A stretch of 24,444 nt of DNA, from IMG/VR virus record IMGVR_UViG_3300009068_000184, positions 1 to 24,444 of that record; one strand, written 5' to 3'. This stretch comes from a virus. Below are positions 15,941 to 21,079 of this stretch, in pieces; positions within the stretch are counted from its first letter, which is position 1; each line of letters begins with the position of its first letter. The notes beneath the pieces were generated by a model. That model made no database searches. It had not been told where the DNA came from and worked only from the letters and a program-made list of their open reading frames with translations. Both the position numbers and the translations under genes were made by a program.

Positions 15941-16243
15941 TTATTCTATAAAAGTGTTGGAAGAACCTTGCGCAATTGCATCTCCGTCTCCAATACTGTC
16001 TCCGATTCGAACTGCTAAGTTACCCTCAATATAAGTCTTTCCAGCAGAACTAGATGGTATTCTACTGCTCTGTGGATGAACAGTTGTACCACAACTATGA
16101 GTGGCAAACTGGCAATCTCCGCTCTTTGAACCAGCTAATTTACCGTTAAAATATGTCTTAGTCACACCTGTAGTCACCATTGGAGTTGGTGGAAAACATC
16201 CATGTCCTGTGCTGTTATCTCCGATTGTTGATACAGCAGGCAT
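15941..16243 (-). CDS. gp5.4: PAAR-repeat spike tip protein (gp5.4-like)
   Basis: This is a 100-residue protein; T4 gp5.4 has 97. It starts MPAVSTIGDNSTGHGCFPPT and holds PAAR-type features: GHGCFPP at 13-19, then THSCGTTVHP at 48-57, and a second half with IRIGD-like spacing (LAVRIGDSIGDGDAIAQGSS). H14, H49, C51 and H56 are candidate ligands for the metal ion that PAAR proteins bind in their conical tip. These proteins cap the beta-helix needle of gp5 or VgrG and form the sharp point that pierces the outer membrane. It sits one gene downstream of gp5, and its start overlaps the stop of the 154-residue gene (TAATG). The family call is firm; the exact metal ligands are inferred. Confidence 0.9.
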   Translation of the reverse strand: MPAVSTIGDNSTGHGCFPPTPMVTTGVTKTYFNGKLAGSKSGDCQFATHSCGTTVHPQSSRIPSSSAGKTYIEGNLAVRIGDSIGDGDAIAQGSSNTFIE

Positions 16244-16707
16244 TATCGTCCAATCCTAGTCTGAGCAATAGCAGTTAACAAAGCAGTTTTACCCGCATCC
16301 CAGTTAAATGTAGAAACAACGGTATAAGTCTGTTGAACATCTGGACCAATAAAATTTTTATCCTTAGCTGTTACAGTATAACTATAAGTTACAGTTTGAA
16401 TAGTCGGTGCAGTAAAAGAACAAATTTCATATGAATTTGTTATATCATTAAAATTATTAACAGTATTATATGTTTTATCTTTAGTCAAATATGTAATACT
16501 ACTATTGCCATGATATGTTGCATCATATTGACCAGAAATATTATTGGTACCAACAGTCATCATAGGGTTTGGTTTATCTGTAACTATTCCTGTGACTTCA
16601 TAGTTTGTTGATGCTGCACCAGTATAAGAAAATGTTTGTGAGTAGCTGGTATAAACAGGCAACTGATCCACTGTCGTCAAAGCAGTATTGGAAGGAGTCC
16701 AAGGCAT
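16243..16707 (-). CDS. Protein of unknown function between gp5 and PAAR
   Basis: I do not recognise this 154-residue protein. It is rich in Thr, Ser, Tyr and Asn, with alternating hydrophobic patterns that predict mostly beta strands (QTFSYTGAASTNYEVTGIVT, IQTVTYSYTVTAKD, QQTYTVVSTFNW) and a short C-terminal helix (AGKTALLTAIAQTRIGR). This resembles a small beta-sandwich. There is no signal peptide, membrane segment or catalytic motif. It is coupled at both ends (TAATG) to gp5 and PAAR, the two halves of the cell-puncturing spike, so a role in the spike or in loading its tip is plausible. This is inference from position only. Confidence 0.8.
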   Translation of the reverse strand: MPWTPSNTALTTVDQLPVYTSYSQTFSYTGAASTNYEVTGIVTDKPNPMMTVGTNNISGQYDATYHGNSSITYLTKDKTYNTVNNFNDITNSYEICSFTAPTIQTVTYSYTVTAKDKNFIGPDVQQTYTVVSTFNWDAGKTALLTAIAQTRIGR

Positions 16708-19700
16708 TATGCTGCTTTCGGAGGAATGCTATCTAACAAAACAAATCCAGAGGGAATACGCTTTGAATCCCGTTTATAAACTTTATCATTCACCATCGTA
16801 AACGCTTGTTTTCTTGCACCCTTAGACTTAAATGATACATGGATCCAAACTGATTGAGGGAAACGATATTCAAGAATCAACTGATCATAAGGAAGGATCT
16901 TTTCTAACTGTTGAATGATCTCATATGTTTTTGTATTTTTGTCTGGCAGCATAATACCAATATCAAATGCTTGCCCCTTACAGTGGTCTGATGTTGGTGA
17001 CTCGTTTGCAACTATACCCTTTAAACGATAACCTGAATTAATCTTCCACTGTTTCTTATATCCTCCAATACCACCTGGAAGAACTCCCATCGCTGGTTCA
17101 AGAATATTCTGACAAGTCTGCGCAAGATTACATACAATCTCGGGAGCAGTGTATAATCTTTCTGGTGCGTCTTTACTATCCTTAAGCATCTGATCAACGA
17201 GTTTATGTTCACCACCAACACCTCCATCCATTAACATACCAAGAGTGAAGTTTTGGGACATTCTAAAATCATTTGTAAATTGTCTTGTTGCGTAAATAAT
17301 CTCACAACTTACTGGAATAGTAGTATTAGAACCACCTGATGGTTTTCCTGCTTCTTCTGACGCTACTGGTGCAGGTGCTCCAACTACACCTTCTTTTCTA
17401 GTAGTCTCAGCAGATGCCGCACGACCTTCTGGTGTGTCAAAGTCATCTGGAGTTTCAGCAACAGTCTTTTCTTCAAACTGTCTTTCTGGAGGAATTGAAT
17501 ATGGCACAACTGGAGATAGTGGATTACCTAAATCTGGAGGAGTCAATTCTACATCAGGAGCAACAATAGTTTCGCTACCAGCTGCACCATTACCAAATTG
17601 ACCTTGAGAGTAATCTGCAGATAATGTTCCACCAGCAAGGATATCCATACTACCACTCGACTCAAGATTAACTGTGGCACCGAGTAGGTTAAATCCTTCA
17701 TCAGCAGCAACTGAAACTGCAGATCCATTCACTGCATAATTAGTATCAGCTTTCTGATTAATATTTGCAGCTTGGATATCAATATCACCAACTGCTTTAA
17801 TAAGAATGTCTCCACCTGCAGCCATGTAGATATCATTGGCAACACCAATGTCTAGATTTTGCCCAACTTTAAGTGTAGCATTTTGCTCAACTTGAATGTT
17901 CGCATCAGTACGAGCATAAATGTTTGCATTACCATTCACAGTAATGTTTAATTCACCAGCTACGGATAGACAACCATTCTTTTCCATGACAACAAAGTTA
18001 TCACCGATGATGTAGTTAACCTGTGTTCCGTTTGGATCGATCTCGCTAAATGTTCCAGATCTATGGTAAGTGTTTATTCTTTCATACCCTGGAGTATCAT
18101 CAAATTCTTGTAGGTGACCAGATTCTGTTTCAAGAACTTTGTTAAATGGATACTTTGCTCCATATGGTGCTTCTGGTTGATCCCATGATCCGTTATCAAG
18201 TGCTTTAGGAACACCCAGCTTTCGGATAGCATCTTTCTTCTTAATAACTGTACCTTCAATAACACCACGTGCAAGACGATTAGTGTCTGGCTCACCGATA
18301 TACTCTTTTAGAGGATACTTGTTGTTTGGGTCTCGGAAACCAGTAGTACCAGAACCAGTTTTTACAGATTCTGGTGATGGTTGTGGAGTTGTTACATTGC
18401 CTACTGGTGGTGTATCTGGAATTGGTGGGTTGGCATCTTTCTCTGGAGCACCAACATCTGGTGATTGCCCATAGAAATATTCATAGTATGCTTTCTTTTT
18501 TGCAGCGATATCAGCTGAGTTTACACCAACTGCTTGTTTTGCTGCAAGGAAATATCCAGGATGATCATTTACATTAACACCCTTTGGCACTCTGTCTTTA
18601 ATGTACAATGCAGCAACTAATGCTGACACATTAATATCAGCATCAAGTGAATCTGGATTGTTAACAATATCCAGAGTCAAACCCATCTGATTGGCAAGTT
18701 TCTGGTATCTTGCATAGTTTGATTTACCAGTTAACTGAATAAATCCACGACCATAATACTTTCCACCATCTTCATCTGTTTGATTACCAAGAAATCCTTT
18801 TCCTCTTTTTGTTGGACCATATGCCCATGAGAAGAATTCTTCTCTACTTAAACCTCGTTTTCTAGCATTAGAATATTTGGCAATGTCTTCTGGAGTAGCA
18901 AACGAGTAAATAGTTTTAAGACGTCCTTCATTATAATTATACTCTTCTGATGTTGGAACCCACGTACTTTCACCACCAGCAATACCCAACAAAGCACATT
19001 TCTGTTCTTTAGTAGTCAATCCAACTTTATCACATGCAGCAATAAGTGCTTTAATACCTTCTGATGCCTTGTTTGGGTTACTAGAAGACTTTGGTGGTGG
19101 GATAGTTGGTATTGATGAATTAGATGCTGTTGATTTTATTTTATCTGCAGTCGATCCTGTTACCACTGCAGTTCCATCGCTAGTGACAAGATTAGTGACT
19201 TTACTTTCAGCAACAGCTTCAAGATTTGATGGTGCTGCTTGAAACTTTATAATATTTTCTTGATAATTTATAACAGTATTACTAATTGTAATTTTAGTAC
19301 CACTATCAACAGAAACAATAAATGTTCCTGCTGGAAGTCCAAAGCCTAACACTCTCATGTTTGCTTTTAAATCTTTGGTTAGATTAGTAGCACCAGTTTC
19401 TTTATCATAAAATGTTAATTGTGTGCCATTTGTTGGACCAGGAATAGTTCTTAATTCCAAATTTTCAATTTTACCGCCAGAAGCAATTGGTGCATCATCT
19501 TCTTTATCAATGGGTGCTGGCGCAGAAGGAATACCACCAACAGTACCAATCATAATTGGTTGTTGATTATCAGTATCCGCAAAAATAATAATTACACAAG
19601 TACCCTCAACTGGACCAATAGGAGAGAATCCAATACCATTCATTGCAGCAGATGTAACTGACTGCATTGGATGCGCCCATGGTAATTCTGAAGTAGGAAG

Positions 19701-19802
19701 CTGTGATTTGTCGTGTGTATGCAATCCAACTACTCGGACTTGACAACGACCAAGTTTTAATGGATCACTTCTATTTTCTACGACACCATAGTAAAAATTC
19801 AT
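16707..19802 (-). CDS. gp5: Baseplate hub spike gp5 with GH19-type and M15-type domains
   Basis: This is a 1031-residue protein; T4 gp5 has 575. Residues 1-95 are the OB-fold (YYGVVENRSDPLKLGRCQVR, GCxP-like hub core, IMIGTVGGIP). A Pro-rich linker at 228-245 leads to a GH19-type domain at about 245-446: ALLGIAGGESTW with candidate catalytic E278, E286/E287, and KYYGRGFIQLTGKSNYARY at 348-366. A second Pro-rich linker runs about 452-480. Residues 590-735 are the beta-helix needle (short repeats such as VNGNANIYARTDANIQVEQN). After a linker at 745-830, residues 838-1003 match the peptidase M15_3 pattern: KINSGYRLKG, SDH-x-x-G-x-A-x-D (H940, D947), DQLILEY and WIHVS (H988). It would pierce the outer membrane and cut peptidoglycan. 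It is coupled to the gp27-like gene upstream. Confidence 0.9.
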   Translation of the reverse strand: MNFYYGVVENRSDPLKLGRCQVRVVGLHTHDKSQLPTSELPWAHPMQSVTSAAMNGIGFSPIGPVEGTCVIIIFADTDNQQPIMIGTVGGIPSAPAPIDKEDDAPIASGGKIENLELRTIPGPTNGTQLTFYDKETGATNLTKDLKANMRVLGFGLPAGTFIVSVDSGTKITISNTVINYQENIIKFQAAPSNLEAVAESKVTNLVTSDGTAVVTGSTADKIKSTASNSSIPTIPPPKSSSNPNKASEGIKALIAACDKVGLTTKEQKCALLGIAGGESTWVPTSEEYNYNEGRLKTIYSFATPEDIAKYSNARKRGLSREEFFSWAYGPTKRGKGFLGNQTDEDGGKYYGRGFIQLTGKSNYARYQKLANQMGLTLDIVNNPDSLDADINVSALVAALYIKDRVPKGVNVNDHPGYFLAAKQAVGVNSADIAAKKKAYYEYFYGQSPDVGAPEKDANPPIPDTPPVGNVTTPQPSPESVKTGSGTTGFRDPNNKYPLKEYIGEPDTNRLARGVIEGTVIKKKDAIRKLGVPKALDNGSWDQPEAPYGAKYPFNKVLETESGHLQEFDDTPGYERINTYHRSGTFSEIDPNGTQVNYIIGDNFVVMEKNGCLSVAGELNITVNGNANIYARTDANIQVEQNATLKVGQNLDIGVANDIYMAAGGDILIKAVGDIDIQAANINQKADTNYAVNGSAVSVAADEGFNLLGATVNLESSGSMDILAGGTLSADYSQGQFGNGAAGSETIVAPDVELTPPDLGNPLSPVVPYSIPPERQFEEKTVAETPDDFDTPEGRAASAETTRKEGVVGAPAPVASEEAGKPSGGSNTTIPVSCEIIYATRQFTNDFRMSQNFTLGMLMDGGVGGEHKLVDQMLKDSKDAPERLYTAPEIVCNLAQTCQNILEPAMGVLPGGIGGYKKQWKINSGYRLKGIVANESPTSDHCKGQAFDIGIMLPDKNTKTYEIIQQLEKILPYDQLILEYRFPQSVWIHVSFKSKGARKQAFTMVNDKVYKRDSKRIPSGFVLLDSIPPKAA

Positions 19803-21079
19803 TATTTGTTCCTATTCATATTCATTTGCGATGATTCTTTAATTAGTTCCATATGGCATTCATGTTTTTCTCTATCAACATGATGGTTAATAGCAGCAAT
19901 GATATAATAACCTGAAAACATTTTATCCGTTGTGTCTTTATCTTTTGGAGACATTGGTTCTATTCTATTTAATACAACACCAACTTTCTGTCCTACCGTG
20001 TAGTCAGTTCTCCCAGGAACTGTAATCCTAATTTTATTTGACTCTGCCAGTTTCATCAAAGATGCTCTCTCTTGGAATGTCTTAGAATTGGTGACATCAC
20101 CAAACCCATTAAAGTTACCGTAGTCTTTGGGATAGTTGATTAATGTTGAGTTTGATCTAAAAACTGCTTTGTCAGAATTGATTGGATGTTTGTTTAAATG
20201 CTTTTGCTGTTCATATCTCTGAAACATATTGTAGTTCTTAACTGAATATGTTTTCTTTGTAACATCATACATAATTTGTCTAGATGACAACATACCACTA
20301 CGAATTCTATCCATGTAATCATATGCTACTGGTACACTGATATCCGTAATTCTTTTGTAGTCTTCATTTACATTTCGGATATCACCACCATTGGGTAATT
20401 TATCACGAGTATATTTGTCATATGTAAATTCTTGGAATGGTTTATTTTGATATAACATTTCTAAACTAATAAAGTAAAACCCATCTCTATTCTCGAAGAA
20501 AACATAGTTTGGGGTCTTATTCATATTGACTGCATTCTCGCAAAGATACATAATGTTCTTAATTGGAGACCAGTAGTTTGAAATATACTTTACATTAGAA
20601 AGTGTTGGCTCGACATGAACTTTCTTTTCACTTTCCAAACCTATAACTTTATCTTTAATAAATGGTGTGACTAACTCAGAAACTTTATTTCCAAAAACAC
20701 GACTAATCTTTTTGTTAAGATCTGCTACTGCTTCAGTAGAAATAAAATGTATCTGATAAATCACAGAACGATCGCCAAGAAGTTCTCTATCAGTCAATTT
20801 GTAGATATAATATTTACCTTTAACCGCACTGTCTTTTAGAGCAGGTGTTGTAATATCTAATTCAACATATTCTTCACCAATAAATGGGAAAAGATTAATC
20901 AAATCTAATGATTCTTTAATAACAATACTACCAGTTATAAATGGTGAAAAAATATCTTCATAAAATTGCACAGTTAAAACTTGCCCTGTGATATCCTGAT
21001 GAAAACCTTTCGGGGTAATTATTTTAACTTTATTGATGCTGACATCGCCAGCAAATCTCAATTGTTGACTAGATTTCAT
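19802..21079 (-). CDS. gp27: Baseplate hub protein, gp27-like
   Basis: This is a 425-residue protein; T4 gp27 has 391. Features that fit a hub protein are an N-terminal beta-domain (INKVKIITPKGFHQDITGQV, VQFYEDIFSPFITGSIVIKE), a middle region with VKYISNYWSPIKNIMYLCEN and NYVFFENRDGFYFISLEMLY, and a C-terminal part with AESNKIRITVPGRTDYTVGQ, KVGVVLNRI and FSGYYIIAAINHHVD. The last two are typical of the tube-like domain of gp27 and related gpD/VgrG proteins. gp27 trimers form the cylinder that holds gp5 and joins it to the tail tube. It sits directly upstream of gp5 with a TAATG overlap, and gp53 is upstream. The hub call is strong from position and fold-like motifs; direct sequence identity to T4 gp27 is low. 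Confidence 0.75.
   Translation of the reverse strand: MKSSQQLRFAGDVSINKVKIITPKGFHQDITGQVLTVQFYEDIFSPFITGSIVIKESLDLINLFPFIGEEYVELDITTPALKDSAVKGKYYIYKLTDRELLGDRSVIYQIHFISTEAVADLNKKISRVFGNKVSELVTPFIKDKVIGLESEKKVHVEPTLSNVKYISNYWSPIKNIMYLCENAVNMNKTPNYVFFENRDGFYFISLEMLYQNKPFQEFTYDKYTRDKLPNGGDIRNVNEDYKRITDISVPVAYDYMDRIRSGMLSSRQIMYDVTKKTYSVKNYNMFQRYEQQKHLNKHPINSDKAVFRSNSTLINYPKDYGNFNGFGDVTNSKTFQERASLMKLAESNKIRITVPGRTDYTVGQKVGVVLNRIEPMSPKDKDTTDKMFSGYYIIAAINHHVDREKHECHMELIKESSQMNMNRNK

Follow-up and report, generated by a model that had tools for sequence, protein, structure and literature searches.

A T4-type gp5 spike gene that combines a GH19 domain with a predicted M15-type peptidase domain

The gp5 gene and its domains

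The IMG/VR virus record IMGVR_UViG_3300009068_000184, analyzed here as a stretch of 24,444 nucleotides (the window), carries a T4-type gp5 spike gene whose sequence encodes two enzyme-like domains, a GH19 domain and a predicted M15-type zinc peptidase domain. An earlier reading of the same DNA (the original prediction) had proposed a gp5 spike at positions 16707-19802, and an open reading frame (ORF) of 1031 amino acids indeed occupies these positions on the minus strand, with homology to Gp5_OB and to the gp5 helix. The order of its parts is oligonucleotide/oligosaccharide-binding (OB) fold, beta insert, GH19, linker, triple helix, flexible tail and M15.

16707..19802, minus strand: gp5 spike gene, 1031 amino acids
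19524..19802, minus strand: OB fold (Gp5_OB, PF06714), residues 1-93
19125..19523, minus strand: rapidly evolving insert that separates OB fold and GH19, residues 94-226
18465..19070, minus strand: GH19 domain, residues 245-446
18969..18971, minus strand: E278, aligned with E49 of SPN1S endolysin
18945..18947, minus strand: E286, aligned with E58 of SPN1S endolysin
18270..18341, minus strand: conserved gp5 linker GFRDPNNKYPLKEYIGEPDTNRLA, residues 488-511, motif GFxDPxxxYP
17598..18185, minus strand: triple-stranded beta-helix region, residues 540-735
17292..17597, minus strand: poorly conserved tether from helix to M15, residues 736-837
16794..17291, minus strand: M15-type zinc peptidase domain (predicted), residues 838-1003
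16983..16985, minus strand: H940, predicted zinc ligand
16962..16964, minus strand: D947, predicted zinc ligand
16869..16871, minus strand: E978, predicted catalytic base
16839..16841, minus strand: H988, predicted zinc ligand

The OB fold matches its Pfam family with 85.6 bits (E 5e-24, cut-off 25) and T4 gp5 residues 8-104 with 75 bits in phmmer, which pairs residues 1-92 and 540-671 of the window gp5 with T4 gp5. The helix region corresponds to T4 gp5 residues 376-471 and 474-555 and to PHROG 430; phmmer aligned it to 1pdl over residues 540-671 and to 9f4a over 541-733. In the Pfam scan PF22178 stayed below its cut-off in gp5, and Gp5_C repeats were not among the matches listed. The insert at residues 94-226 is filled in 85 of 88 homologues with a median identity of 51%, gave no Pfam match, and is missing from BUCT-ZZ01 and from three IMG/VR loci (L026/L028/L030). 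The tether has a median identity of 57% and a minimum of 26%.

The GH19 assignment is solid. Residues 245-446 alone score 27.4 bits with PF00182 (E 3.6e-6), above the cut-off of 25.5, and the whole protein scores 24.4 bits, just under it. PHROG 181 (endolysin) covers residues 249-402 with E 3e-26. The best solved GH19 relatives by sequence (7r6s, 8p8e, 9ms6 and 4ok7) are phage or phage-like proteins, mostly named endolysins, and rank ahead of chitinases. A Foldseek search with the model of the domain (predicted local distance difference test score, pLDDT, 75) returned 8p8e (E 7e-4) and 4ok7 (E 9e-4), with 7r6s in the same range, all at probability 1.0 and template modeling (TM) scores of 0.44-0.49. 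In the SPN1S endolysin E49 is the proton donor and E58 the catalytic base (PMC8547705); these align with E278, the residue singled out in the original prediction, and with E286. We infer that the gp5 GH19 domain would have muramidase and not chitinase activity. The PHROG 181 profile matches not only GH19 but also the helix starts of gp5 in Cr30 and pf16 (L042:5992-8808, L043:2980-5082, L044:2974-4503), which suggests that it was built partly from gp5-GH19 fusions.

The predicted peptidase domain contains the motifs SDHCKGQAFD (from residue 938), LILEY (975) and WIHVS (986), which provide an M15_3-like zinc site of the form SxHxxGxAxD plus WxH with a nearby glutamate. PHROG 894 (endolysin) matches the domain with E 1e-10. 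The best fold match of its model (pLDDT 70) in the PDB is the zinc DD-peptidase 1lbu, with probability 0.98, E 0.016 and a TM score of 0.42. Both domain models were built as single chains from 11-row alignments. Because the Pfam score lies under its cut-off, the assignment to M15 depends on the motifs, the PHROG match and the fold, and membership of the family is probable, not proven.

Conservation and selection

Scans of IMG/VR yielded 38 loci for the whole protein; the domain scans covered the best 80 of 376 confirmed GH19 matches and the best 80 of 398 confirmed M15 matches. The order OB-GH19-linker-helix-M15 occurs in 142 ORFs at these loci, corresponding to 88 non-nested sequences. To avoid circularity in this count, loci found via the M15 domain were examined alone: GH19 was present in the same order in all 62 that have an untruncated gp5, the remaining 18 being cut by the contig end.

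E278 and E286 are invariant in 88/88 distinct full-length homologues, and H940, D947, E978, H988, R926 and S923 in the 85/85 with an alignable M15 site, down to 35% identity. Profiles built from distant relatives only, none of them exceeding 58% identity over GH19 or 38% over M15, score the window gp5 at 216 bits and 136 bits, respectively; the best of 2000 shuffles reached 8.5 bits with the GH19 profile and 9.3 bits with the M15 profile. The ratio of nonsynonymous to synonymous substitution rates (dN/dS, Nei-Gojobori, against five relatives) was 0.10-0.27 for GH19 and 0.06-0.15 for M15, below that of the insert and the tether in all or nearly all pairs, and the insert had the highest or near-highest value within gp5. 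The GH19 and M15 domains are under purifying selection. On the sequence evidence, the expectation of one spike with a glycosidase-type and a peptidase-type domain is confirmed: the two-enzyme combination is real and conserved, with both sets of predicted catalytic residues intact and invariant.

Baseplate neighborhood

The gp5 gene lies in a T4-type baseplate cluster at 13.7-22.7 kb on the minus strand. According to PHROG matches, the cluster reads tail tube cap, wedge, tail protein, gp5, a 154-amino-acid protein, PAAR and two wedge subunits, the last two occupying the gp25 and gp6 positions. The genes next to gp5 are:

19802..21079, minus strand: tail protein directly upstream of gp5 (PHROG 350, E 5.6e-79)
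16243..16707, minus strand: 154-amino-acid protein at the T4 gp5.1 position (PHROG 1168, E 1.4e-8), gene order as in RB32 and KVP40
15941..16243, minus strand: PAAR tip protein of 100 amino acids at the gp5.4 position, without a fused enzyme (PHROG 281, E 1.9e-16)

Compared with RB32 and KVP40, gp5 thus has the baseplate surroundings with a PAAR tip that are typical of T4 gp5. The upstream tail protein is at the position expected for the hub protein gp27, and by gene order it would fill that role. As a possible sign of a cyanobacterial host we looked for psbA, which was found neither in 13 related IMG/VR contigs (some of 161-174 kb) nor in BUCT-ZZ01. No bacterial genome with a gp5-type GH19 was confirmed.

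Position of the enzymes relative to T4 gp5

In RB32, a T4-type phage, the OB fold ends near residue 103, about 10 residues before the start of the linker GFSDPTGQYP at 113, and the lysozyme fills the space up to the helix, which starts at 387. In KVP40 and EniLVp02, which lack the lysozyme, the linkers start at 112 and 114 and the helices at 202 and 176, respectively. The window gp5 has its linker start at 488 and its helix start at 551, with only 63 residues between the two, and BUCT-ZZ01 shows the same layout (416 and 480). No PF00959 (Phage_lysozyme) match was found between linker and helix in the window gp5; since KVP40 and EniLVp02 also lack it, this domain is not required in the wider gp5 family. 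The GH19 domain lies upstream of the linker, within what Pfam treats as the single Gp5_OB domain, and the site of the T4 lysozyme holds no enzyme. GH19 precedes the linker and the T4 lysozyme follows it. The idea in the original prediction that GH19 replaces the T4 lysozyme therefore does not hold, and a like-for-like substitution is ruled out by the differing position.

The upstream slot is also used by other phages. In gp5 of Ochrobactrum phage vB_OspM_OC (phiOC_p064; L202:2956-5382), M15_3 (E 6e-13) and Phage_lysozyme2 (E 1e-20) stand in tandem between OB fold and linker, the peptidase ahead of the lysozyme. In six loci (L032, L034, L035, L038, L039 and L040, the latter Melnitz) gp5 is split into a gene with the OB fold and a gene with linker, helix and M15, and the split point coincides with the point of enzyme insertion in other phages. 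Melnitz has a VanY domain at the end of the first split gene, and the other five have GH19 at the start of the second. In the gp5 of CBA120 (L209:1993-3606) the OB fold is followed by a CHAP domain (E 3e-10); the linker was not found there, and the slot is uncertain.

The M15 lineage and the separate GH19 gene

Among phages, relatives of the M15 domain occur at the gp5 C-termini of Cr30, pf16, Melnitz and BUCT-ZZ01. Five isolated phages, Pseudomonas phages Milchi, PA5oct and Peetri and Vibrio phages 1.244.A and 207E48.1, carry a related M15 domain fused to PAAR (L041:4937-5941, L045:4343-5332, L206:2967-3953, L207:2964-3986 and L214:1874-2881). In a tree of 18 rows all spike-associated M15 domains group together in a single clade (99/99) that excludes endolysin M15s, with the PAAR-fused ones on one side of a 94/93 branch. 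The simplest reading of these sequences is one spike-specific M15 lineage that has switched its carrier, from gp5 to PAAR or the reverse. On either carrier M15 would be placed at the spike tip, which fits a function there. Mass-spectrometry evidence is listed for the PAAR-M15 protein of PA5oct.

We tentatively propose, as a reading somewhat short of even odds, that gp5 has two sockets for enzymes and that they would serve a staged entry in which peptides are cut before glycans. One socket would lie between OB fold and linker and accept GH19, the M15_3 and Phage_lysozyme2 pair of OC, the VanY of Melnitz and possibly the CHAP domain of CBA120; the other would be the tip, where the C-terminus of gp5 and the PAAR cap may have exchanged the spike-specific M15 lineage.

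Four near-complete relatives (L218-L221, 161-174 kb) have a second, separate GH19 gene encoding a protein of 209-229 amino acids, with similar neighboring genes. This protein is probably the endolysin, so lysis need not rely on the spike enzymes. A 96/97 branch parts the separate GH19 proteins from those of gp5; its branches are long and the separation is tentative. With that branch between them, the idea that the gp5 GH19 was recently copied from the endolysin of the same phage, for which T4 gp5 and gene e offer the analogy, is unsupported, as tentatively as the branch itself. Like T4, the phage group makes use of one glycosidase family in two proteins, and no sign of recent duplication was found in it.

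Proposed mechanism and alternative explanations

It is likely that this gp5 is the trimeric central spike of a T4-like phage and carries two hydrolases that attack peptidoglycan by different chemistry. The trimer would be expected by analogy with T4, and zinc binding, both activities and their order of action are predicted. The OB fold would dock on the hub, GH19 would sit beside the spike base on flexible arms between OB fold and linker, and M15 would be tethered by about 100 residues to the far end of the helix, close to the PAAR cap, which is a separate protein. If the spike is a trimer as in T4, it would hold three copies of each enzyme. Upon sheath contraction the tip would pierce the outer membrane, and M15 would reach the periplasm first and cut stem or cross-link peptides. 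The spike would follow, GH19 would cleave the glycan strands, and the resulting hole would admit the tube. Tip-first entry would thus put peptide cutting before glycan cutting. From the domain content it is reasonable to infer that one spike cuts both bond types during injection.

A number of observations weigh against this interpretation. PF08291 scores the M15 domain at 17.2 bits (E 0.0056), under the cut-off of 23.2; of the M15_3 domain originally predicted at residues 838-1003, the motifs are present as described and PHROG 894 agrees, whereas the Pfam match does not stand. A search of PDB sequences with the M15 domain gave no match. The position of H48, a substrate-binding residue that is 93% conserved among GH19 endolysins (PMC8547705), is taken by G277 here and by V or K in relatives, although this is a binding and not a catalytic residue. 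Both fold models are of moderate quality (pLDDT values as given above), with TM scores of about 0.4-0.5 for their matches.

The low Pfam score and the weak fold match would suit a spike in which GH19 alone is a working hydrolase and M15 has turned into a binding or structural tip module. We consider this unlikely, since the six M15 residues listed above are invariant even among distant homologues, the dN/dS of the domain is low, and homologous domains on PAAR and on other gp5 proteins retain the same residues. Cleavage offers another explanation: T4 gp5 undergoes a single cleavage in the course of assembly, and the tether at residues 736-837 is long and poorly conserved, so M15 or both enzymes could be released from gp5 and serve lysis or virion maturation instead of entry. 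The separate endolysin-size GH19 protein of the four near-complete relatives argues against such a role, as does the separation of the spike M15 clade from endolysin M15s, and we regard it as very unlikely. The least probable of the three alternatives is that GH19 targets not peptidoglycan but a polymer outside the wall, either a surface polysaccharide or one that resembles chitin. The family does include chitinases, and PF00182 is a chitinase model, but the closest solved relatives in both sequence and fold are mostly phage endolysins that rank above chitinases, and the spacing of E278 and E286 fits E49/E58 of the endolysin and not E67/E89 of chitinase (PMC8547705).

A spike with two peptidoglycan hydrolases, which we favor, bears on two general statements. 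According to a 2018 review, virion lysins of the endopeptidase type are almost confined to phages that infect Gram-positive bacteria (PMC6116005); the PAAR tip proteins of jumbo phages are presented in a 2021 survey as standalone and unfused to effectors (PMC7824862). A T4-like lineage with M15 on its spike at hundreds of IMG/VR loci, together with PAAR-M15 proteins in several isolates, qualifies both. The named catalytic residues and the sockets make the division of labor between glycan and peptide cutting testable in BUCT-ZZ01 or Cr30.

Comparison with known systems

T4 gp5 (PDB 1k28 and 1pdl, read here as RB32 gp5) shares with the window gp5 the OB fold, the GFxDPxxxYP linker, the triple beta-helix, the gene order with PAAR and the presence of one glycosidase. 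It differs in having PF00959 after the linker and nothing past the helix, whereas the window gp5 has GH19 before the linker and an added C-terminal M15. The original statement that T4 gp5 has a single lysozyme domain is correct for T4; for the gp5 family it is too narrow, as several phages carry two or different enzymes. The closest counterpart in layout is gp5 of Synechococcus phage BUCT-ZZ01 (UTS51949.1), which has OB, GH19, linker, helix and M15 in identical order; it is about 32% identical to the window gp5 and is annotated only as baseplate hub subunit. The gp5 of Caulobacter phage Cr30 likewise has an OB fold, a glycan-cutting domain, a helix and a C-terminal M15 (identified by tblastn, PHROG 894 and motif), but with Phage_lysozyme2 (PF18013) instead of GH19 and with no linker motif found.

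The OC gp5 also unites a peptidase and a lysozyme in one protein, but both lie upstream of the linker; the OC genome paper mentions only a tail-associated lysozyme. For the Rak2-like phages, a gp5-type protein with a lysozyme and a possible peptidase domain has been described as CBB_240/CBB_250, both protein numbers being used in one passage (PMC5259590); there the peptidase is of type M23 and the lysozyme is C-terminal (PMC5259590). The PAAR-M15 tip proteins have a related M15 at the tip, carried by the PAAR cap and not by gp5. The tail-tip protein gp13 of phi29 has lysozyme and endopeptidase domains. Outside phages, the type VI secretion system effector TseP is one delivered protein with two peptidoglycan-cutting activities, which in this case are proven (PMC11893102). 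It differs in combining an amidase with a lysozyme, in being carried by VgrG and in killing competitors rather than helping entry (PMC11893102).

Our search for papers on a GH19-carrying gp5 covered the open literature and found none. Two-enzyme gp5 spikes as such occur in OC and Cr30 according to our scan, a Rak2-like protein has been reported with a lysozyme and a possible M23 peptidase (PMC5259590), and the present architecture was deposited unremarked in BUCT-ZZ01. New are the pairing of GH19 with M15 throughout an uncultured lineage that is abundant, the upstream slot as a separate site, and the spike-specific M15 lineage on gp5 or PAAR. A 642-kb uncultured phage (LR756502, L217) has a GH19 domain in yet another setting, as the C-terminal part of a long protein, which may be a baseplate hub and not a spike.

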